Shown here in pieces: positions 23,197-35,624 of a stretch of 64,000 nt of DNA (positions are counted from its first letter, which is position 1; each line of letters begins with the position of its first letter). Source of the stretch: Haliovirga abyssi (GTDB taxonomy: Bacteria > Fusobacteriota > Fusobacteriia > Fusobacteriales > Haliovirgaceae); assembly GCF_030295325.1 (NCBI RefSeq), contig NZ_AP027060.1:124001-188000 (forward strand), given 5' to 3'. Below the pieces are notes generated by a model. It worked only from the letters and a program-made list of their open reading frames with translations. It did not search any database and had not been told where the DNA came from. The position numbers and the translations under genes are program-made.

Positions 23197-23279
23197 AGCA
23201 ATAGTTTGAAAAAAATGGGAAAATCATCTATTTTTTAAGCTGTCTCTAATAATATTTGCTATATAGGGAGGTTATATTT

Positions 23280-24695
23280 ATGAAAAAAAGGGTGTTAATA
23301 ATAATTAGTTTAATAAATTTAATTTTAATGGTAGGTTGTAATAATATAAATATTAATTCAGAGAAAAGTAATTTAAAAAAAATAGATCTTGCAAATATAA
23401 AAATAATAAAACCAAATTTAAAATCAGATGAAAATTTAAACAAAGATGTAATAAATTTTTATAAAGAATGGGAATCAAAGTATATAAAAAAAGTAAGAGG
23501 TGTATTTCCAGAACAAACATATTTAGATTATGGAGTAGAAGCGAGAGAAGATTCTGATGCTTTGCAAGATTGGTTTAAACCATTTAACGTAGTAGCAACT
23601 TCAGAGTCTCAAGGGTATGCAATGATTATTACGGCTTCTATGGCAAACATCGATAAAGATAATAAAGACAATTTCCAAAAAAAATTCAATGCACTTTATA
23701 GATTTTTTAGAGCTCATCCAAGTAAATACAATAGAGATTTAATGTGCCTGCAAGAGTTAGGTATTGGCTTAGAAAAAAATGGATCAATTGTAGAAGGAGA
23801 AGTTTTGGATATAGAAAATACAACTGACGGACCTTATTCATCAATAGAGGGAGATATGGATATAGCATATTCATTATTAATAGCTAATGAAATATGGGGA
23901 AGCGATGGAGAAATAGATTATAGATCAGAGGGATTGAAAGTAATAAAAGCTATAATGAACAGTGAAATAAACAGAAAGGAGCATATTCCATTAATGGGAG
24001 ATTGGGTTTTAAAATATGCCAGCGGAAGAAATCCAGTAGATAAAAAAGAGGGGATAAAACATTTAACAATTGTAAAATCTTCAAATTTAATTCTAAATTA
24101 TTTTGATACATTTTCAAAAGTAGATTTAGAAAATAGAGAAGAGTGGTTAAATGTCTTAAATAAATCAGAAAATATAATAAATTATAATACTACTAATTGG
24201 GGAAGTAAAACAGGATTAGTTGCTGATTATTTACAAAAAAATATTAGTGGGTATTATATCCCAGTAAAAGGAGCGGTTGTAGAAGGCGATGAAAATGAAG
24301 GAGATTATAATTGGAATGCTTGCCGTGATCCGTGGAGATTTTCAGTTGATACAATCTATAGTAATAATAGAACTGTATTATTAGGTTTAGTAAAATTAAA
24401 CAGATGGATTAGGGAAAAAACAGGAAATATTCCAGAAGAAATTAGACCTGGATACTATATACGAGATGGAAAAGCAGGAGAAATTATTGGTGATCGATAT
24501 GGATGGGGAGAAGATATATCATTTACAGCACCATTTTTAATTAGTGCTTGTATCGGTCAAGAAAACCAAAAATGGCTAAATGATCTGTGGTCTCATTTAT
24601 TAGAGATTCCTATTGACGATGAAGTATATTTTGGGAATGTTTTAAAAATGCAAGCTTTAATAATTGCATCTGGAAATTGGATTAACATTCAATAA
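23280..24695 (+). CDS. GH8 family glycoside hydrolase, lipoprotein (chitosanase/cellulase type), copy 1
   Basis: An exported 471-residue lipoprotein. The signal ends in a lipobox LILMVGC with Cys20. The GH8 (alpha/alpha)6 domain shows TSESQGYAMIITASMAN at ~107-123 with the general-acid Glu109, EGDMDIAYSLL at ~190-200, and NACRDPWRFSVD near 345. The ATG at 23280 is chosen because GGAGG precedes it; an earlier ATG at 23256 would lengthen the signal. GH8 contains endoglucanases, xylanases, lichenases and chitosanases. The amino-sugar locus favours chitosan, but sequence alone does not settle it. A near-paralogue follows directly. Confidence 0.88.
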   Translation: MKKRVLIIISLINLILMVGCNNININSEKSNLKKIDLANIKIIKPNLKSDENLNKDVINFYKEWESKYIKKVRGVFPEQTYLDYGVEAREDSDALQDWFKPFNVVATSESQGYAMIITASMANIDKDNKDNFQKKFNALYRFFRAHPSKYNRDLMCLQELGIGLEKNGSIVEGEVLDIENTTDGPYSSIEGDMDIAYSLLIANEIWGSDGEIDYRSEGLKVIKAIMNSEINRKEHIPLMGDWVLKYASGRNPVDKKEGIKHLTIVKSSNLILNYFDTFSKVDLENREEWLNVLNKSENIINYNTTNWGSKTGLVADYLQKNISGYYIPVKGAVVEGDENEGDYNWNACRDPWRFSVDTIYSNNRTVLLGLVKLNRWIREKTGNIPEEIRPGYYIRDGKAGEIIGDRYGWGEDISFTAPFLISACIGQENQKWLNDLWSHLLEIPIDDEVYFGNVLKMQALIIASGNWINIQ

Positions 24696-24729
24696 AAGCG
24701 TTTAATTTTTATAATTGGAGGGAATAAAG

Positions 24730-26130
24730 ATGAGAAGAATAATGATAAAAAAATTACTATTTTTAGTAATATTAATTTCAGTAATAGGGTGTGCTAATAC
24801 AAAAATAAAAACTATACAAAACACCTCTTCAAAAGATGTGAAAATAATAAAACCAAATTTAAAATCAGATAAAGCCTTAAAAAGAGATATAGTAACATTT
24901 TATAAAAGTTGGAAAGAACAATATCTAAAAATAGTTCCGAATAAAAATCCAGAACAAATATATTTAGATTATGGAGTAGAAGCAAGAAAAGATCCAGATG
25001 CTTTATCCGATTGGTTTGATCCAGCAAATGCTGTAACTACATCTGAATCTCAAGGGTATGCAATGATTATTACGGCTTCTATGGCAAACATTGATAAAAA
25101 TAATATAAATAATTATAAAGAGCAATTCAATGCACTTTATAGATTTTTTAGAGCACATCCGAGTAGATTTAGTAACGACTTAATGTGTTGGCAAGAGGTT
25201 GGGATTGGGCTAGAAAAAAAAGGAGATACAGTAACTGGAGAAGTAACAGATGTAAAAAATATAGAAGAAGGAGCAGACTCTGCAATAGATGGAGATATGG
25301 ATATAGCTTACTCTTTATTAATAGCAGATAAAATATGGGGAAGTAATGGAGAGATCAATTATAAAGAAGAAGCATTAAAAGTGATAAAGGCTATAATGAA
25401 AAATGAAGTGAATAAAAAGGAACACATTCTTTTGCTAGGAGATTGGGTCTTAAATTCTATTAAAAATGGAGAAATCAAAGAAAATAAGAAATATTTAACA
25501 ATAACAAGATCTTCTGATTTTATTCTAGATCATTTAAGAGCGTTTTCTAATATAGACAAAGAAAATAGTAAAGAATGGACAAATATTTTAGAAAAAACAG
25601 AAGCTATAATAAATTATAATGTAAATAAATGGAGTAAAAACACAGGATTAGTAGCTGATTTTCTACAAAAAGATGAAAATGGGAATTATACTCCAGCTAT
25701 TGGAAATGTTTTAGAAGGAGATAATGATGGAGATTATAATTGGAATGCTTGTCGTGATCCGTGGAGATTTTCAGTAGATGTAATCTATAACAAATCACAA
25801 AAGATAACTTCATCCATAAAAATATTAAATAATTGGGTCAAAAAAAATAGTATGGAAGATCCAGAAAAAATATATCCAGGTTATTACATAAGAAATGGCG
25901 AGGTAGGAAAAGTAATTGATGACAGAAATACTTGGGGCGAAGATTTATCGTTCACTGCACCATTTTTAGTAAGTGGATGCGTAGGAGAAAATAACCAAGA
26001 GTGGATAAATAAATTATGGGAAAATATTATAGATACAAAAATTGGAGATTCAGAATATTTTGGAAATGCTATAAAAATGCAAGCTTTAATAATTGCTTCA
26101 GGCAATTTGGTAAATGTTATAGGAGAATAA
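24730..26130 (+). CDS. GH8 family glycoside hydrolase, lipoprotein, copy 2
   Basis: A 466-residue paralogue of the preceding gene, clearly a tandem duplication: they share KIIKPNLKSD, YLDYGVEAR, TSESQGYAMIITASMAN, GDMDIAYSLLIA and WNACRDPWRFSVD. The lipobox is LISVIGC. The catalytic acid and the conserved Asp residues are kept, so both copies should be active. The ATG at 24730 has GGAGGG at 24717-24722. Divergence in loops could give different chain-length or acetylation preference. The gene ends the forward amino-sugar block and is followed by a hairpin terminator. Confidence 0.88.
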   Translation: MRRIMIKKLLFLVILISVIGCANTKIKTIQNTSSKDVKIIKPNLKSDKALKRDIVTFYKSWKEQYLKIVPNKNPEQIYLDYGVEARKDPDALSDWFDPANAVTTSESQGYAMIITASMANIDKNNINNYKEQFNALYRFFRAHPSRFSNDLMCWQEVGIGLEKKGDTVTGEVTDVKNIEEGADSAIDGDMDIAYSLLIADKIWGSNGEINYKEEALKVIKAIMKNEVNKKEHILLLGDWVLNSIKNGEIKENKKYLTITRSSDFILDHLRAFSNIDKENSKEWTNILEKTEAIINYNVNKWSKNTGLVADFLQKDENGNYTPAIGNVLEGDNDGDYNWNACRDPWRFSVDVIYNKSQKITSSIKILNNWVKKNSMEDPEKIYPGYYIRNGEVGKVIDDRNTWGEDLSFTAPFLVSGCVGENNQEWINKLWENIIDTKIGDSEYFGNAIKMQALIIASGNLVNVIGE

Positions 26131-26210: not shown

Positions 26211-26256
26211 AAAGAAAAACAGCTAAAAATATAATTTAAGCTGTTTTTCTTTTTAT
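26211..26256. terminator. Bidirectional terminator between converging genes
   Basis: AAAGAAAAACAGCT and AGCTGTTTTTCTTT form a 14-bp stem with an A-tract on one side and a T-tract on the other. It can end both the GH8 transcript and the minus-strand tetR transcript. Confidence 0.8.
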
Positions 26257-26867
26257 TATTTTTTTAATTTATTCATAATTCCATAAAGATATATATCTGT
26301 AATATAATCTGAATAATTCTCATAAAATTCATCATTAAAATCTGTATTAGTTACTACTTCAAGCATAGGTTTAAACATAAAATGTGAAAAATATATTCCC
26401 GTAAATGCAGGAATAGCAATTTCTAAATTTAATTTTTCATTTTTTATAGTACTTAGATTTTCAAAAAGTGTACCATAAAGAAGTTTCATAATTTTCATAA
26501 CTTTTTCTTTTTTAATCTCTTTAATATCATCATGTTCATATGGAAATTCAAAAATAGATATTTTAAACATATCTTCATTTCCCTTAATTAATTTTATTGT
26601 AGCTCTTCCAGCTTTTCTTATCCTTGTTTCAAAATTATCATTTTTATCTATTGCAGCAGATATTTCTGTATATAATTTGTCATAAAATATAGTTATAATC
26701 TCTTTTAATATTCCAACTTTAGAGTTATAATAATAATTTACCATTGATATATTTATACCAGCTTCCTTTACAAGTTCTCGAACTCCTGTAGCTGAAAACC
26801 CCTTTTTAGCAAAAAGTTTTATAGATACTTGTAATAACTTTTCTTTTGCAGACAACTCTTTTTCCAT
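26256..26867 (-). CDS. TetR/AcrR family transcriptional regulator (TetR-1)
   Basis: A 203-residue repressor with an N-terminal helix-turn-helix (FSATGVRELVKEAGINISMVNYYYNSK) and an all-helical ligand domain. The ATG at 26867 is chosen since GGAGG lies 8-12 bases before it. It is divergent from a radical SAM operon. The shared intergenic region carries the inverted repeat AAACG-TT-CGTTT at 26965, and the same element recurs in the promoter at 30880. This makes TetR-1 the likely repressor of both transcripts and perhaps of itself. The ligand is unknown; a lipid or fatty-acid-like compound would suit the target genes. Confidence 0.9.
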   Translation of the reverse strand: MEKELSAKEKLLQVSIKLFAKKGFSATGVRELVKEAGINISMVNYYYNSKVGILKEIITIFYDKLYTEISAAIDKNDNFETRIRKAGRATIKLIKGNEDMFKISIFEFPYEHDDIKEIKKEKVMKIMKLLYGTLFENLSTIKNEKLNLEIAIPAFTGIYFSHFMFKPMLEVVTNTDFNDEFYENYSDYITDIYLYGIMNKLKK

Positions 26868-26959
26868 TATTTCTACCTCCAAGTATTTTTTATAAATTTA
26901 AATATATTATAACACTATACATATATATTTTACAAATATTATATCATAATTTTTATAGC

Positions 26960-26988
26960 TTGACAAACGTTCGTTTAAATGATAAAAT
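26960..26988 (+). promoter_or_regulatory. Promoter and TetR-type operator of the radical SAM operon
   Basis: TTGACA (26960-26965) and TAAAAT (26983-26988) are spaced by 17. Inside lies the inverted repeat AAACG-TT-CGTTT (26965-26976). The string TTGACAAACGTTCGTTT is identical at 30880-30896, which argues for one regulator. Confidence 0.8.
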
Positions 26989-27055: not shown

Positions 27056-28294
27056 ATGAAAGAAAAAAAAATTTACATTGGAACAGATTCTGTAATGAAT
27101 TCAATGCTTAGTTCTATACAGGAGGGGATAATAAAACATCAAAGTAATTTTTTTAAAGTTCAAAAATTTACAGAGGATTTAGTACATAATAGAACTTATG
27201 TCAATTGTATGTTTCCATCATTTCCTGGAAGAGCTTGGGATAGATTTTTTGAAGGAACATATAGGGTATCTAAAGGAGAGAATGTTCCTTTATGGATGGA
27301 TATTGTTGTAACTGGAAGATGTCATTGTAATTGTTGGCATTGCTTTAGATCAAGTTATAAAGATAATGGGGATCTTGAAATTGAAGTTATTAAAAGAACA
27401 ATTGATGAAGCGTATGAAGCAGGAACAACAGTTATTGGAATTACTGGTGGCGAGCCAATGCTTAGAGATGATATACTAGATATATTAAAATTAATTCCTG
27501 ATGGAATGGAGGGATTATTTTATACAACTGGTTATAAAATAGATAATAGTTTTGCAAAAAAATTATCAAAAACAAATGTTACGAGATGTTTAATAAGTTT
27601 AGATCATTATGATGAAAAGATTGTAAATACAATGAGAGGATATCCAAAAGCATATGAAATGACAATGACAGCTATAAAAGCATTAAAAGAAGCAAATATC
27701 TATACAGGAGTAACTTTATGTGTGACAGATGATTTATGTGATCGTGAAGTATTTTATAAATATATAAATTTTGTAAGAGAACTTGGTGCTGATGAAATAA
27801 GAGTAATATTACCAATTCCACAAGGAAATCTTGAAGGTAAAAATTATAAAAGGCTTTATATTAATGCAATGAAATGGACTCGAGAAATTCATGAAAAATC
27901 ATTAAAAAATCCAAATTACCCAAATATTCTACTTTTTTCTCAATTGGAAAGTCATAATTTTATAGGATGTGGAGCAGGTTATACTTATGTAACTATAAAT
28001 AATGATGGAGCATTGACTCCATGTGTATGTGTTCCTTTAACGTTTGGAAATGTTAAAGAAGATGGATTTATAAGTGCCTATTCTAAAATTAATTCTTTAT
28101 TTAAAGGGACAGGAAAAACTTGTTATGGTAAACGTGTAAGTAAAGCAATGAAAGAGGAGATAAAGGATGGAATGTTGGCGCCTTACAATGAAGAAGTTTC
28201 AAAAAAAATAGCGAATAAATGTATTGTTAATGATGGAATTGCTAAATTTTATGATAATTTAAAAAATTATGAAGTAAAAGAAAATGATGCTTAA
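27056..28294 (+). CDS. Radical SAM protein with SPASM-like C-terminus
   Basis: A 412-residue radical SAM enzyme. The cluster-binding motif C-x3-C-x2-C is in GRCHCNCWHCF at about residues 90-98, followed by the GGEP motif (GITGGEPMLRDD). The C-terminal part carries further cysteines (GCGAGYTYVTINNDGALTPC-V-C and a late Cys), typical of SPASM or twitch domains that bind auxiliary iron-sulphur clusters. Family members modify peptides or build small-molecule scaffolds. Residues 1-80 show a non-catalytic N-terminal extension. It begins 18 bases after AAGGAGG and is followed by a KASIII-like gene 29 bases on, in one operon under the TetR-type operator. The substrate is unknown. Confidence 0.88.
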   Translation: MKEKKIYIGTDSVMNSMLSSIQEGIIKHQSNFFKVQKFTEDLVHNRTYVNCMFPSFPGRAWDRFFEGTYRVSKGENVPLWMDIVVTGRCHCNCWHCFRSSYKDNGDLEIEVIKRTIDEAYEAGTTVIGITGGEPMLRDDILDILKLIPDGMEGLFYTTGYKIDNSFAKKLSKTNVTRCLISLDHYDEKIVNTMRGYPKAYEMTMTAIKALKEANIYTGVTLCVTDDLCDREVFYKYINFVRELGADEIRVILPIPQGNLEGKNYKRLYINAMKWTREIHEKSLKNPNYPNILLFSQLESHNFIGCGAGYTYVTINNDGALTPCVCVPLTFGNVKEDGFISAYSKINSLFKGTGKTCYGKRVSKAMKEEIKDGMLAPYNEEVSKKIANKCIVNDGIAKFYDNLKNYEVKENDA

Positions 28295-28323: not shown

Positions 28324-29358
28324 GTGAATGGTACAAAAATATCAGGAATAGGAACATATATTCATTCTGTTGTTTCAAATAATGATTATATAAATATATT
28401 TGGTAAAAAAGCAAGATTTATAGATAAAAAAATTCCTCACAAAACAAGGTATAGTGCAATAAATATTTTAGATGGAAGCGTTGAAATAAGAAATAGTGAA
28501 ATGGCATATCACGCCTCTATTGAAGCGATGGAAATGGCTAAAGTTAAAAATGATGAAATAGATATGATTATATATTCTACATCTACTCCAGACTATATCC
28601 TTCCACCTAATTATGTAATATTACAAGAAAAATTAGGTATAAAAAAATGTATGGGAATAGATATTCGTTCAGGATGCTCTGGATTTGGTAATGCAATTAT
28701 TACTGCAAAACAATATATTGCTACAGGCATGGCAAAAAAAATTTTAGTTGTTGGAGCAGATCTAACATCTTCAAGATTATCCTTTTTATTTAAAAATCTA
28801 AAAGAATTTCCATTAAAAGCTTTATATAATTTAATGCTATTTGGAGATGCCGCTGGAGCCGTTGTTGTTGAAAAATCAGAAATAGATAATTTTTTTGGAA
28901 CAATAATGGGCTCTTCACGCCCAAATTCACCATTTGGTTCTTTAATTGAGGTAGGTGGGTCAGTAAATCCTTATCCGAATGGTAATTTTAAGAATGAGGA
29001 TATCCCAATACATCAAAATGCTTTAGCAACGGAACAATTAATTCCAGGGGTTATGATTGAAGCAGTAGAAGAATTTTTGGGAAAATCAAATAGTAAAATT
29101 GAAGATTTTAATTACTACATACTCCCAATAGATTCTCCAAGAATGGCATCAAAAGTAATAGAATATTTTAATCTTGATAGTGATAAAATAATTAGTGTCG
29201 GAGCAGAAGGAGGAAGTCTTGTTAATGCAGCAGTGCCACTTGCTTTAAAAAAAGCATATGATTTGGGGAAATTAAAAAAAGGTAATAAAATAATGATATA
29301 TGCTGCTGAAAATACTAGGTGGCAATATGCTGTAATGGGATATAATTGCAATTTTTAA
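28324..29358 (+). CDS. Divergent beta-ketoacyl-ACP synthase III-like (thiolase-fold) protein
   Basis: A 344-residue thiolase-fold protein related to FabH. The nucleophile Cys118 is kept in DIRSGCSGF, and the core FGDAAGAVVVE is present near 173-183. The catalytic His of FabH (PHQAN) is replaced at LPIDSPR (~267-273), and the Asn of 'GNTSAAS' aligns with GGSLVNAA (~296-303). Two of three triad residues therefore appear lost, which argues against ordinary decarboxylating condensation; acyl transfer or another Cys-only reaction is possible. The GTG start has AGGAGGAG before it. It is co-transcribed with the radical SAM gene, suggesting a short pathway to a lipid-like product. Confidence 0.82.
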   Translation: MNGTKISGIGTYIHSVVSNNDYINIFGKKARFIDKKIPHKTRYSAINILDGSVEIRNSEMAYHASIEAMEMAKVKNDEIDMIIYSTSTPDYILPPNYVILQEKLGIKKCMGIDIRSGCSGFGNAIITAKQYIATGMAKKILVVGADLTSSRLSFLFKNLKEFPLKALYNLMLFGDAAGAVVVEKSEIDNFFGTIMGSSRPNSPFGSLIEVGGSVNPYPNGNFKNEDIPIHQNALATEQLIPGVMIEAVEEFLGKSNSKIEDFNYYILPIDSPRMASKVIEYFNLDSDKIISVGAEGGSLVNAAVPLALKKAYDLGKLKKGNKIMIYAAENTRWQYAVMGYNCNF

Positions 29359-29523: not shown

Positions 29524-29736
29524 ATGATAAAATTATATGGAAATTCATTTGGTAAAGAAGAGACTTATTATTATTTAGCAACGATGTATGAAGAAGAAAT
29601 AATTATTAATGATATTCGAATAAGAATTAAACCTATGAAAATTTATAGCGTAGATATTTCTTCTAAAAAAGAAATCGAAATTAATATTTTGAATAATAAG
29701 AGCCAACTATTTATGTTCGAAATAAATAAAAAATAA
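29524..29736 (+). CDS. Small hypothetical protein
   Basis: A 70-residue frame with a beta-rich pattern (alternating Ile and charged residues) and no membrane segment. No clear ribosome-binding site precedes its ATG. The 165 bases upstream contain an isolated AGGAG right after the KASIII stop but no frame using it. It may be a real small gene or the remains of a larger one; I recognise no family. It sits between the KASIII-like gene and a DMT transporter. Confidence 0.35.
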   Translation: MIKLYGNSFGKEETYYYLATMYEEEIIINDIRIRIKPMKIYSVDISSKKEIEINILNNKSQLFMFEINKK

Positions 29737-29752
29737 TAAAGGAGATGTTATA

Positions 29753-30649
29753 GTGAAAAATAATATAATTTTAGGGCATTTAATGACATTGATGACAATA
29801 TTTATTTGGGGTGTAACGTTTGTTTCAACAAAAGTTTTATTGGTTCATTTAACGCCAATAGAAATATTATTCTACAGATTTTTAGTTGCATATATTTTAT
29901 TATTAGTGATTTATCCTAAAATAAAAAAGGTGAATTCGGCAAAGGAAGAAATATTATTTTTTTTCTTGGGTTTTTTTGGTATATTTATGTACTTTTTACT
30001 TGAAAATATTGCGTTAAAGTACACATTGGCATCTAATGTAGGATTATTTATGTCAACAATACCCATAATTACATCTTTAATAGTTGTATTTGGGACAAAA
30101 GATGAAAAATTCAGGAAAGAATTGATATATGGTTTTCTTATTGCTATAATAGGGGTATTTTTAATAATATTTAATGGAAAATTTATTTTAAAGCTGAATC
30201 CTATAGGTGATATTTTAGCATTAATTGCCGCTCTTTCCTTCTCCATTTACTCAAATTTATTGAAAAAGATAAATAATAAATACAACTATTTATTTATAAC
30301 TAGAAAAATATTTTTTTATGGGATTATATGTATGATACCGATTATATTCTTAAAACATGAACAATTTTCACCGAATAAGCTTTTAATTCCAGAGGTATTT
30401 TGGAATATTGTATTTTTGGGGGTAGCGGCATCGACTCTTTGTTTTGTTATGTGGAATAAAGCTGTTAGTATTATAGGGGCAATCAAAGCAAGTAATTATA
30501 TATATCTTGTTCCAATAATTACCATAGGGACATCAGTTCTTATTATAAATGAAACAATAACAATATTTATAATTTTAGGTGGAATATTGACTTTAAGCGG
30601 AGTATATATTTCTGAAAAGGGATTTAAAATTATTAAGATAAAAAAATAG
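29753..30649 (+). CDS. EamA/DMT family transporter
   Basis: A 298-residue inner-membrane protein with ten predicted helices in two EamA repeats; the first opens with the GVTFVSTKVLL helix and the second contains the family-like 'SNYIYLVPIIT' segment. Members export metabolites or amino acids, and the substrate cannot be told from sequence. The GTG at 29753 follows AAAGGAG by 8 bases. It probably belongs to the operon starting at 27056, although 165 bases of AT-rich DNA and a small frame intervene. Confidence 0.85.
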   Translation: MKNNIILGHLMTLMTIFIWGVTFVSTKVLLVHLTPIEILFYRFLVAYILLLVIYPKIKKVNSAKEEILFFFLGFFGIFMYFLLENIALKYTLASNVGLFMSTIPIITSLIVVFGTKDEKFRKELIYGFLIAIIGVFLIIFNGKFILKLNPIGDILALIAALSFSIYSNLLKKINNKYNYLFITRKIFFYGIICMIPIIFLKHEQFSPNKLLIPEVFWNIVFLGVAASTLCFVMWNKAVSIIGAIKASNYIYLVPIITIGTSVLIINETITIFIILGGILTLSGVYISEKGFKIIKIKK

Positions 30650-30652
30650 TTT

Positions 30653-30810
30653 CTTCGCACGACAATGTGCAGAAGCCATCATTTCGAGAAACGTTGCGCT
30701 GACTCTTATGAGGTGGTACTGAACCGTTAGACTGGTATCATCTAACAGATTTAGCTAAAATAAATATAGCAATATATTCAGAAAAAGTATTAAAAGAAGG
30801 AAGAGTGTAA
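30653..30810 (+). pseudogene. C-terminal gene remnant in a GC-richer patch
   Basis: GGT at 30712 opens a stretch encoding GGTEPLDWYHLTDLAKINIA followed by IYSEKVLKEGRV and a stop at 30808-30810, with no start codon. The preceding 60 bases are unusually GC-rich, and a neighbouring frame (CRSHHFEKRCADSYE) could be the frameshifted upstream part. I do not recognise the protein. It appears to be a decayed gene between the DMT transporter and the next promoter. Confidence 0.4.
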
Positions 30811-30825
30811 TACATTTTATATTTG

Positions 30826-30864: not shown

Positions 30865-30879
30865 ATCACATAAAAAAAC

Positions 30880-30909
30880 TTGACAAACGTTCGTTTGATT
30901 TTGTATAAT
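30880..30909 (+). promoter_or_regulatory. Promoter and TetR-type operator of the barrel/MMPL/LolA-like operon
   Basis: TTGACA (30880-30885) and a perfect TATAAT (30904-30909) with 18-base spacing. The inverted repeat CAAACG-TT-CGTTTG overlaps the -35 box. The 17-base core is identical to that at 26960. Confidence 0.82.
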
Positions 30910-30963: not shown

Positions 30964-32202
30964 ATGTTGAAAAAAATTATGTTTTGTTTTTTATTTTGTA
31001 TTACTTTATCAAATTATATTTTTGCAGAGGATAGTTTATTTGATTCTGCAATGGAAATGTCTGATAATTCAGGAGGCAAAAAGTTATCCTATACTATAAA
31101 TGGTAATTTAAAATCTGCAATTTATAGTAATGATTCATTAGATGATTTTTCAAATTCATATTCACAATTGTCATTAAAGTTTAATATGAAAAAAGGAGAG
31201 TTTGGAGATGGATATGCAAACATAATTATAGACAATAAAAGTATTATATTAAGAGAGGCTTATTTAAATTATTATTTTAAAAATTTAGATTTTAGAATTG
31301 GGAAACAGATTATATCTTGGGGAAGATCAGACGGGATAAATCCTACAGATAATATTACTCCTAAAGATTTAAATATACTATCTTCTGAATCTGATGATCA
31401 AAAATTAGCTAATTTTATGTTGAAATCAAAAATTTCATTAAATAATATTAGAATTATAGGATTATTTATTCCTAAATATAGTTCGTCACCAAATTTAAAA
31501 ACAGGAGAAGATATTTTAGAAGGGGATTATAAAAATTATGAAACAAAGGCATTGAAAGTTAATTTTGAATTTCCAGTAGTAGATACATCGATATCTTATG
31601 TTAATGGATATTCATTAAACAGAGGGATAGCAGTGGATAGTTCTAAAACTACTCCAACACCAATTTTAATTCCATATAAAGAAGAGGTTTATGGAGCTGA
31701 TTTTTCTACAACGATAAAATCATATAGAATATCTGGAGAATGTGCATATAAAAATTATTTAGAAAATGAGAAATATTATATCCCATATTCAGAATTGGAG
31801 TATACATTAAGTGTAGATAAAACTTTTTTAAAAAGCATTTCTACGATATTTCAATATTATGAAAAATATATAGATGAGTACAAGGATCTTAAAATAACTC
31901 CGTATTATGATGTTGAAATGAGAAATAGATTAATTTCTAAACAGACGGCAAAGATTCAAAACTCTTTATTATATAAAATAGATTGGAGTTTAATGTATGA
32001 ACAATTACATATAGAAAACGTCGGTAGTTATAATTTAACAACAAAAGAGAGTATCTTTAAAACAAAAATTTCATATAATATTACAGATGATTTTATTGCA
32101 ATATTAGGGAATGATAGTTATTTTGGAGATAAAGGGACTTTAATAGATTTGATAAAAGATGATCTAAATAGAAATTATTTAGAATTAAAAATATCATTTT
32201 AA
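30964..32202 (+). CDS. Outer-membrane beta-barrel protein, DUF1302-like
   Basis: A 412-residue exported protein. The signal peptide (FCFLFCITLSNYIFA then cleavage near Ala21-Glu) is followed by strands of alternating polar and hydrophobic residues, a GK-Q-II-WGR-DGINPTDN segment near 115-130, and a C-terminal Phe, the usual outer-membrane assembly signal. The 'GrqiisWG...NPtD' pattern recalls DUF1302-type barrels found beside MMPL transporters. It is the first gene after a TetR-type operator and is followed by an MMPL-type RND gene and a LolA-like gene. The 39794 protein is a counterpart. Confidence 0.72.
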   Translation: MLKKIMFCFLFCITLSNYIFAEDSLFDSAMEMSDNSGGKKLSYTINGNLKSAIYSNDSLDDFSNSYSQLSLKFNMKKGEFGDGYANIIIDNKSIILREAYLNYYFKNLDFRIGKQIISWGRSDGINPTDNITPKDLNILSSESDDQKLANFMLKSKISLNNIRIIGLFIPKYSSSPNLKTGEDILEGDYKNYETKALKVNFEFPVVDTSISYVNGYSLNRGIAVDSSKTTPTPILIPYKEEVYGADFSTTIKSYRISGECAYKNYLENEKYYIPYSELEYTLSVDKTFLKSISTIFQYYEKYIDEYKDLKITPYYDVEMRNRLISKQTAKIQNSLLYKIDWSLMYEQLHIENVGSYNLTTKESIFKTKISYNITDDFIAILGNDSYFGDKGTLIDLIKDDLNRNYLELKISF

Positions 32203-32223
32203 AATTTAAAAGGAGTGATGAAA

Positions 32224-34545
32224 ATGTTTGAAAAATTAGCACAAATAGCATTGAAATTTAGGGTAATTGTAATTTTAGTTTTTGTTGGAATAACAATATT
32301 TTTTGCTATTCAAATTCCAAAAGCAAAAATTGATACTGATTTAAAAAGTGAATTGCCAAGCAATATGCCATCAAGGATAAGAATGGACCAAATTGAAAAA
32401 ATGTTTAAAGGAACAGAATTTGTAATGATAACATTTACAGCAAAAGATTCTATATTTAATAAAAATACATTAAAAAGGGTAATAAAAATATCTAAAAATC
32501 TTGAAAAAGTTGTTCAAGTAGAAAAAGTTACAAGTTTATATACATATAAAGATTTAAAGGCGGAGGATGGAAGTTTAATTGTTGAACCATTATTAAAAAA
32601 AGTTCCGAGAGGTAATAATGGAATGTTAAAATTAAAGGATAGAATAAAAAACAATGATATGATTTATAAAAATATAGTTTCAAGCGATTTTAAATCAACA
32701 GCAATAATAGCAATATTAAAACCAAATTCAGATGATGAAAAGATATTAAGTAGTATAGATAAAATATTAAAAAAATATCCAGGTAATGAAAAAATAGAGA
32801 TTGGAGGAGTTCCAGTTTCACGAGCAGTAACATCAGAGTATATGAAAACCGATATGAGAAAGTTTCTTCCAGCAGGACTTTTGATAATGCTTATATTTTT
32901 ATTTTTCTGTTTTAGATCTATTAGTGGAGTTTTGCTTCCATTTATTATTGTTGTTATGTCAATAATTGTTTCAGTTGGAATAATACCTATTTTAGGTTGG
33001 AAAATACAATTTGTAACAATAATTTTACCAGTTATATTAATTGCAGTTGCAAATGATTATGGAATTCATGTAATTGCAAAATATCAGGAAAATTTAATAG
33101 AGTATCCTAAAAAAGATCAAAATAGTTTGATTAAAAATATAGTTGAAAGTTTAGGAGGTCCAGTTATAGCCACAGGAATTACAACTATTGCAGGGTTGAT
33201 GTCTCTTATGACTCATATAATTATTCCAGCAAAACAATTAGGAATACTTGCTTCTGTTGGTGTTGGATTTTCACTTTTAGCAAGTATAACCTTTTTGCCA
33301 GCAGTATTATCATTTTTACCAAAACCAGAATTAAAAACTAAAGATAGAAAAAAGCATTTTCTTGATAAAATTTTAGAAAATTTAAGTAAATTTATTAAGA
33401 ATAATTTTGTTTCAATATTAATTGGAGCAATTGCTATAACACTTATAATAGGTGTGGGAATTGCAAAACTTGTAGTAGATACAAATCCAGTAAATTATTT
33501 TAGTAAAGATACACCAATAGTAAAAGCATATAAATTAATAAATAAAGAATTTGGCGGTTCTACTAATTTATCGATAGTGGCTGAAGGAGATATCAAAGAT
33601 CCTGTTATAATGAAAAAAATAGATGATTTAGAAAATATGCTATCAAAAAGAAAATCAATAGGACAAGTAATGTCTATTTCAAAAGTTATAAAACAGATGA
33701 ATAAAGTTTTGCATAATGGAGATGAGAATTTTTATAAAATTCCAAATAGCAGAGATACAATTGCACAATATTTTTTATTATATAGTATGAGTGGCGATAG
33801 TGAAGATTTAGAAAAACTTGTGGATTTTGATTATAAACATGCGCTTATAAATGCGAGAATATCAACTACAAGTGTAAATACATTTAAAAAAGAGCTAAAA
33901 TATATAAAAGCCTATATTGCAAAAGATCCAAATACTCCATTTAAAATAATGGGAGGATATGCTGATATTATTTCTGAGCTTATGGATGCAATAGTAAGTG
34001 GGCAAGTAATTAGTATCTTATTATCACTTCTTCTTGTAGCGGTAATAGTTGGAGTTCTTTTTAAATCTTTTTATGCAGCACTATTTTCAGTATTACCATT
34101 GTCTTTTGCAATAACAATCCTGTTTGGGTTAATGGGATACTTTAATATAGAATTAAATATTATAACAGCGATGCTTACATCAATAATGATAGGAGTTGGA
34201 ATAGATTATACAATCCATTTTTTATGGCGTTATAGAAATGAAAGATTTAATGGGAAAAATTCAGAAGATGCATTATATAAAACGATTACAACTACAGGAA
34301 GAGGAATTGTATTTAATGCTTTATCTGTAATTGTAGGATTTGTAGTTTTAATGTTGTCAAAATTTTTACCAGTACAATTTTTTGGATTTCTTGTAGTTGT
34401 ATCAATAAGTACTTGTCTTTTAGTTGCAATGGTACTTTTGCCTGCAATATGTATTTTATTCAAACCTAAATTTTTGGAACCTAGTATTGATGAAGAAAAA
34501 TTAGATATTACAATCCCTTCAAAAGAGGCTTTTGAAAATATATAA
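32224..34545 (+). CDS. MMPL/RND family transporter (set 1)
   Basis: A 773-residue inner-membrane protein with the RND repeat: a first helix at ~14-31, a periplasmic loop, five helices from ~220 on, a second helix-loop-helix block, and final helices near 600-750. Sterol-sensing-type segments such as GVGIDYTIHFLWRY are seen near 660 and AVANDYGIHVIAKY near 285, with the paired acidic residue of proton-driven RND pumps. MMPL members move lipids or hydrophobic compounds across the periplasmic side. The ATG at 32224 best fits AAAGGAG. It lies between barrel and LolA-like genes, so it likely hands a lipid to the periplasmic carrier. Confidence 0.88.
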   Translation: MFEKLAQIALKFRVIVILVFVGITIFFAIQIPKAKIDTDLKSELPSNMPSRIRMDQIEKMFKGTEFVMITFTAKDSIFNKNTLKRVIKISKNLEKVVQVEKVTSLYTYKDLKAEDGSLIVEPLLKKVPRGNNGMLKLKDRIKNNDMIYKNIVSSDFKSTAIIAILKPNSDDEKILSSIDKILKKYPGNEKIEIGGVPVSRAVTSEYMKTDMRKFLPAGLLIMLIFLFFCFRSISGVLLPFIIVVMSIIVSVGIIPILGWKIQFVTIILPVILIAVANDYGIHVIAKYQENLIEYPKKDQNSLIKNIVESLGGPVIATGITTIAGLMSLMTHIIIPAKQLGILASVGVGFSLLASITFLPAVLSFLPKPELKTKDRKKHFLDKILENLSKFIKNNFVSILIGAIAITLIIGVGIAKLVVDTNPVNYFSKDTPIVKAYKLINKEFGGSTNLSIVAEGDIKDPVIMKKIDDLENMLSKRKSIGQVMSISKVIKQMNKVLHNGDENFYKIPNSRDTIAQYFLLYSMSGDSEDLEKLVDFDYKHALINARISTTSVNTFKKELKYIKAYIAKDPNTPFKIMGGYADIISELMDAIVSGQVISILLSLLLVAVIVGVLFKSFYAALFSVLPLSFAITILFGLMGYFNIELNIITAMLTSIMIGVGIDYTIHFLWRYRNERFNGKNSEDALYKTITTTGRGIVFNALSVIVGFVVLMLSKFLPVQFFGFLVVVSISTCLLVAMVLLPAICILFKPKFLEPSIDEEKLDITIPSKEAFENI

Positions 34546-34835: not shown

Positions 34836-35624
34836 ATGATGAAAATAAAGAAAAGCATACTAATTTTATTTTTTATAGTTATAAATTTAACAATGTTAGC
34901 AGAAACACCAATTGAAATTATTAACAAATCAAGGGATGTTATAAAGTTAAATGGAGTTGAGATGATAATCTCTTTAATCACAAAAGATAGAAATAATAAT
35001 GTAAGAAAACAAAAAATAGCATCTATTTCTAAATTATATTCTGATAATACAGAAAAAAAAATAATGAGATTTTTATATCCTACAGATGTAAAGGGAACAG
35101 GCTTTTTATCTTATGATTATGAGAAAAAAGATGATTTAATGTGGCTATATCTTCCTTCGCTTAGAAAGTCAAGAAAAATAGCTGCATCTGAACGTTCAAA
35201 AAGTTTTATGGGGTCAGAGTTTTCATATTCAGATATAACTTCTTTTAAAATAGAGGATTTTAAATATTCAATTTTAGGGGAAGAAAATATAAATGGAGAA
35301 AAATGTTGGAAATTAGAGCAAAAATCAAAAAATGATGACATAGCTGATGACTATGGTTTTTTTAAGAAAATAGTATATATCTCTAAGAGAAATTATATGG
35401 TAATGAAAACTGAATCTTATGACGAAGATGATGAGCTATGTAAAGTAATGGAAGCATTAGGTATAAAAAAAATAGATGTTAAAAGGAATCGTTATAGAGC
35501 TACACATTTAATAATTAAAAATTTAGATAATGGTCGTAGTTCAGAAATGATAATTGAAAAGATAAAGTTAAGAGAAAATATAAAGGATAGTTATTTTACA
35601 ACAAGATTTTTAGAAAGAAATTAA
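34836..35624 (+). CDS. LolA-like outer-membrane lipoprotein-sorting protein (set 1)
   Basis: A 262-residue periplasmic protein with a signal peptide ending near Ala22, belonging to the 'outer membrane lipoprotein-sorting' (LolA/LppX fold) group. It carries the diagnostic stretch RFLYPTDVKGTGFLSYDYE and WLYLPSLRKSRKIAASERSKSFMGSEFSYSDI split over ~88-140. Such proteins form a half-barrel that carries one acyl-chain molecule between membranes, and genes of this type are often placed beside MMPL transporters. A counterpart is encoded at 41941. It starts after AAAGGAG; ATGs at 34836 and 34839 are both possible. The stop is followed immediately by an IS3/R1 relic. Confidence 0.85.
   Translation: MMKIKKSILILFFIVINLTMLAETPIEIINKSRDVIKLNGVEMIISLITKDRNNNVRKQKIASISKLYSDNTEKKIMRFLYPTDVKGTGFLSYDYEKKDDLMWLYLPSLRKSRKIAASERSKSFMGSEFSYSDITSFKIEDFKYSILGEENINGEKCWKLEQKSKNDDIADDYGFFKKIVYISKRNYMVMKTESYDEDDELCKVMEALGIKKIDVKRNRYRATHLIIKNLDNGRSSEMIIEKIKLRENIKDSYFTTRFLERN

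Follow-up and report, generated by a model that had tools for sequence, protein, structure and literature searches.

Possible catalysis by a KASIII-like protein without the FabH His and Asn

A KASIII-like gene at 28324..29358 (+) of the window (here, the whole 64,000 nt stretch of Haliovirga abyssi DNA that was analysed) raises the question of what chemistry such a protein can perform when the nucleophilic Cys is kept and the other two residues of the FabH triad are not. A sequence-only reading had described the protein as Cys-only, with His and Asn apparently lost, and had placed it next to a SPASM-type radical SAM protein, pointing to acyl transfer or thioester parking. The window is part of a 297,551-base second replicon within a 2.73-Mb genome, the sole member of its family among the Fusobacteriota genomes compared.

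The ORF encodes 344 aa from a GTG start preceded by AGGAGG, with 29 nt between it and the radical SAM gene upstream. Both Pfam domains of the KASIII family exceed their cut-offs (ACP_syn_III, 59 bits; ACP_syn_III_C, 31 bits). The best FabH models reach 145 bits (cut-off 249) and 141.5 bits (NCBIfam fabH, cut-off 292.1), about half of what is required, so the protein is KASIII-like and not a FabH. A separate FabH with a complete triad is encoded by the host (L002/L003) and is 27 % identical to it. In an AlphaFold2 model (pLDDT 90, pTM 0.91) the protein has a thiolase fold. The top Foldseek matches of this model are FabHs (E 4e-31, query TM about 0.8), with PqsD and AbyA1 matching at a slightly higher query TM of 0.85–0.86.

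For the residue comparisons, nine atypical KASIIIs (the window protein, two Bacteroidota orthologues, AbyA1, the plasmid protein L036 and the Streptomyces proteins L034, L035, L037 and L062) were aligned with 41 canonical FabHs from many phyla. The Cys nucleophile is present in 9/9 and 41/41, respectively; in the window protein it is Cys118, in the context DIRSGCSGFG. LPIDS stands at the position of the FabH PHQAN motif, with Pro268 replacing His, and GSLVNAA at that of GNTSAAS, with Ser298 replacing Asn. His and Asn occupy these positions in 41/41 FabHs, and Pro takes the His position in all nine atypical proteins. The retention of Cys and the loss of His and Asn are thus borne out by alignment, and the two motifs had been read correctly, as LPIDSPR and GGSLVNAA.

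The description as Cys-only was too strong, however. Position 329, which is Gly in 41/41 FabHs as the first residue of the GGG loop, is Glu in all nine atypical KASIIIs and is followed in each by x-[ST]-[RK]-[WY]; a Glu invariant in the His-less group is therefore absent from every FabH compared. Since the Gly after the first one of the FabH GGG loop supplies an oxyanion-hole amide, Glu329 should, to judge from the alignment, be located in the active-site region near Cys118, and on its conservation it is a candidate replacement for the lost catalytic residues. Additionally, Trp32 and Arg36 of the FabH CoA site align with Phe (F32) and Lys (K36) in the window protein, so the acyl group may come from a donor other than a CoA ester. 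Fold and Cys are therefore shared with FabH, whereas His, Asn, the GGG loop and the CoA-binding Trp/Arg are all replaced.

Other triads of the superfamily do not fit either. OleA and PqsD have a C-H-N triad. MxnB likewise has a C-H-N triad (PMC5724707), and the alignment of the window protein lacks it. CerJ and ChlB3 differ in having a Cys-His-Asp triad (ChlB3 C113, H296, D301). Ser298 occupies what we take to be the CerJ/ChlB3 His position, with Ala303 five residues on at that of Asp, and a CerJ-type triad was rejected for the window protein on these grounds.

Transacylation in KASIII enzymes is the task of Cys, and the Claisen step that of His and Asn (PMC5724707). The window protein, having kept Cys and lost His and Asn, could be a pure acyltransferase that moves the Cys118-bound acyl group onto the radical SAM product (at a hydroxyl, an amine or a carrier thiol), with no C–C bond formed and an outcome like that of CerJ/ChlB3. 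KASIII-fold acyltransferases are documented (PMC9573744). The absence of the CerJ/ChlB3 triad, and the assignment of the nearest solved relative, AbyA1, to a ring-forming condensation, make this a possible but secondary explanation. Cys kept, His and Asn lost and Glu gained together fit acyl transfer or a non-decarboxylative condensation, and our best guess for the favoured chemistry of the window protein is one of these two.

Relatives in polyketide clusters

In a maximum-likelihood tree of the same nine plus 41 proteins, the atypical KASIIIs are split from the FabHs by a branch with support of 100/99, and they still cluster when either outside group is dropped. The KASIII of the window pair is placed with AbyA1 rather than with the Streptomyces group at 83/55, which is weak; with long branches in the tree, the order inside the atypical clade is tentative.

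By sequence, the nearest solved relative is PDB 5by7, annotated in the Foldseek library as AbyA1, a tetronic acid condensing enzyme. AbyA1 shares the KASIII fold, the Cys, the change of His to Pro, Glu at the 329 position within E-x-S-[RK]-W and an insertion before the FGD motif. Identity is only about 23 %, and the residue of AbyA1 at position 298 is Asn, against Ser in the window protein and Ala in its orthologues. The Streptomyces proteins from PKS clusters (about 25–30 % identity) have Pro for His, Glu329 and R-Y, with Ala at the Asn position. As judged from these alignments, loss of the His already has a precedent in AbyA1 (5by7) and in PKS-cluster KASIIIs.

The gene neighbourhoods differ. 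Genes for FkbH and ACP are found in tetronate loci and apparently also beside L036 (a KASIII on a Bacillus-type plasmid with a HAD-IIIC (FkbH-type) gene, an ACP and an E2-like gene), whereas the window pair has neither nearby. The Streptomyces KASIIIs are surrounded by ketosynthases, ACP and sugar or tailoring genes, with no adjacent radical SAM gene, and the aby cluster is not known to include a radical SAM partner. Abyssomicin requires AbyA1, whose homologue RkD has been suggested to form both the C–C and the C–O bond of a tetronate (PMC3625739). The partner substrates of RkD would presumably already be acidic or nucleophilic. The mechanism of the His-less AbyA1 type appears unsettled in the papers found, and the two-enzyme system of the window offers a compact test case.

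The radical SAM partner and the spread of the pair

The gene upstream (27056..28294, +) encodes a radical SAM protein (PF04055, 72.8 bits) that carries the CX3CX2C motif as CHCNCWHC and has a SPASM-like C-terminal Cys region (PF13186, 23.4 bits against a cut-off of 21.5). Within this short region C305, C323 and C356 are invariant over six relatives. The adjoining SPASM-type radical SAM gene of the sequence-only reading is confirmed by these matches, and its pairing with the KASIII is kept across phyla.

Radical SAM orthologues with 48–50 % identity were found in 2 of 346 sampled genomes of the phylum Bacteroidota, and these two are the only carriers of the pair among 98 genomes of their class examined. 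At both loci 39 nt separate the radical SAM gene from a downstream KASIII gene whose product is 51 % identical to that of the window; a cupin gene and a HlyD/ABC exporter come next. The orthologous KASIIIs read FPVAS and GGALANAA, with Pro kept and Ala at the Asn position; the same losses at 51 % identity indicate that the loss is conserved and not an error. The sole His common to the three proteins is His39 in the CoA-entrance segment, and Asn301, three residues beyond the Asn position, is also kept. Within the Bacteroidota loci (GC 0.51–0.53) the pair has a GC content of 0.37, which suggests that these genomes acquired it by transfer.

Between the two Bacteroidota genomes, dN/dS is about 0.11 for the KASIII gene (0.018/0.173) and about 0.05 for the radical SAM gene (0.014/0.278), by which measure both genes of the pair are under purifying selection. 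A functionless, decayed FabH paralogue would account for the loss of catalytic residues beside a normal FabH elsewhere in the genome. Yet orthologues in another phylum keep both the change of His to Pro and the loss at the Asn position, and the window ORF is intact, with a good ribosome binding site and a promoter bearing a repeated operator-like site. This reading is very improbable and was rejected on the conserved substitutions and dN/dS. At L150 (near 9371, in G525) a TAG stop stands near the N-terminal end of the radical SAM gene in comparison with G678, and may represent a truncated start, a pseudogene or a sequencing error.

One radical SAM gene is paired with the KASIII in 3/3 known cases, as would suit thioester parking, in which the KASIII has no turnover of its own and Cys118 carries the acyl group for the radical SAM enzyme to functionalise. 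Such a carrier would also agree with the missing His/Asn and the altered CoA-site residues. However, the invariant Glu329-x-[ST]-[RK]-[WY] suggests catalysis, and other atypical KASIIIs occur without an adjacent radical SAM gene, so that parking is quite unlikely.

No radical SAM orthologue was found in 97 other Fusobacteriota genomes, where KASIII matches are FabH-like with about 24–35 % identity, save for one short stretch of 42 %. Radical SAM matches at E <= 1e-30 were likewise lacking in 399 sampled genomes from the phylum of a Thiomargarita MAG and in 331 from that of an Anaerolineae MAG. The window KASIII had no match among viral contigs. A single-sequence search of genome contigs gave no match and an alignment-based search gave mostly FabHs; a P0002-like gene was found at none of the 80 loci from the latter.

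More distant relatives of the radical SAM protein point to its usual company. A clostridial relative (30–33 % identity; L134/L144 in G311) shares its gene cluster with a polyketide cyclase (Polyketide_cyc), two proteins of ketosynthase-like type, a further cyclase, a methyltransferase, membrane proteins like those of carotenoid synthesis and an HlyD-ABC exporter. In two clostridial genomes (L135, 7866–10648; L136, 6195–8906), related radical SAM/SPASM proteins adjoin two SAM methyltransferase-like genes in a conserved arrangement. Another subgroup, in Clostridia and Bacteroidota (L138, L140, L141, L142, L151 and L152), is found near a gene for a GMC-type oxidoreductase together with one or two small proteins without a Pfam match, and looks like an undescribed four-gene pathway. 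These neighbourhoods, with their ketosynthases, methyltransferases and GMC oxidoreductase, indicate that the radical SAM group often accompanies genes of small-molecule biosynthesis. SPASM enzymes often modify peptides. A peptide precursor (RiPP) reading nonetheless found no support, as nothing corresponding to the 70-aa ORF at 29524 was seen in the Bacteroidota or clostridial loci that were compared.

Shared operator-like sites, exporter and possible product

A TetR-family regulator gene (26256..26882, −) is divergent from the pair. The pair promoter, TTGACA-17-TAAAAT, agrees with the consensus at 11/12 positions, and a palindromic operator-like site, CTTGACAAACGTTCGTTT, lies over its -35 box upstream of the radical SAM gene (26959..26976, +). 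A second, identical 18-nt copy (30879..30896, +) covers the -35 box of a promoter at 30880 that precedes an exporter operon and matches the consensus at 12/12. In 224 kb of the 297,551-base replicon there are exactly two copies of the TetR-type operator-like sequence AAACGTTCGTTT, one at each of these promoters, and no further copy of the 12-nt palindrome within 1 mismatch is present in the same 224 kb. Within the window, the 18-nt site at <=3 mismatches is again limited to the two promoter copies, against an expectation of 0.05. The simplest reading of this distribution is that one regulator controls both the pair and the exporter operon, and the TetR protein is the likely, putative repressor of both. 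An Rfam search of 26–36 kb of the window found no RNA.

The exporter operon encodes a DUF1302 outer-membrane protein (AmeA-like; 30964..32202, +), a HAE3-type RND/MMPL transporter (AmeD-like; 32215..34545, +; TIGR00921, 285 bits, below the cut-off of 352) and a LolA_like/DUF1329 periplasmic protein (AmeB-like; 34836..35624, +). The combination of DUF1302, LolA/DUF1329 and HAE3 RND proteins in one operon resembles AmeABCD of Castellaniella defragrans, which has been connected with efflux of, and tolerance to, apolar monoterpenes (PMC6394551). The gene order differs from that of AmeABCD, and no AmeC-like (YCF48) gene was found near the window operon. As the exporter next to the pair in Bacteroidota is of the HlyD-ABC type, the link between the pair and this exporter comes solely from the window.

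Recurrence of the unit in another phylum, and the operator-like site held in common with an exporter of hydrophobic compounds, suggest that the radical SAM and KASIII unit probably builds a lipid-like molecule. With confidence slightly above even, we favour a module under TetR control for the synthesis and export of a hydrophobic acyl compound, in which acyl transfer or non-decarboxylative condensation by the KASIII would depend on Cys118 and probably on Glu329. The two genes would form a biosynthetic unit for an acyl-derived small molecule. Cys118 would load an acyl group and pass it to a second substrate with an active nucleophile, be it a hydroxyl or amine group or, in a beta-keto thioester, the acidic carbon. 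Such a substrate, being already nucleophilic, would not need the FabH His/Asn pair, which decarboxylates malonyl-ACP. Glu329 in the former GGG loop would probably act as base or gate, the radical SAM enzyme may modify either substrate or else the product, and the co-regulated DUF1302/HAE3-RND/LolA-like system would move the product to or across the outer membrane. While the residue changes, the conserved pair, the clade and the duplicated operator-like site were observed directly, we infer from them the catalysis, what Glu329 and the radical SAM enzyme do, binding by TetR, and export. Counting against this module are the lack of an ACP motif in the window and of FkbH or any other PKS gene among the ORFs around the pair. 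A bolder version, in which a previously undescribed, horizontally moving module has its radical SAM enzyme act on the Cys118-bound acyl group or on the KASIII product to give a novel class of lipid or signal that is exported and acts on membranes, is unlikely.

This analysis adds a conserved partner of the radical SAM type, a distribution beyond actinobacterial PKS clusters, an invariant Glu as candidate replacement residue, and an operator-like site in common with an exporter of hydrophobic compounds. A His-less, Glu-bearing KASIII branch is thereby defined beyond the actinobacterial tetronate enzymes and tied to a radical SAM partner. The duplicated operator-like site is a direct handle, through inducer, exporter and product, for finding the compound.

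The EamA gene (29753–30649) was rejected as a pathway member and regarded as a neighbour, being outside the control of the operator-like site and without a counterpart in the Bacteroidota loci. Between it and the exporter promoter, 30640–30820 resembles the remnant of a broken coding sequence and has no Rfam match. At 23256–26130 are two adjoining, similar putative lipoproteins, the first with a weak match to glycosyl hydrolase family 8.
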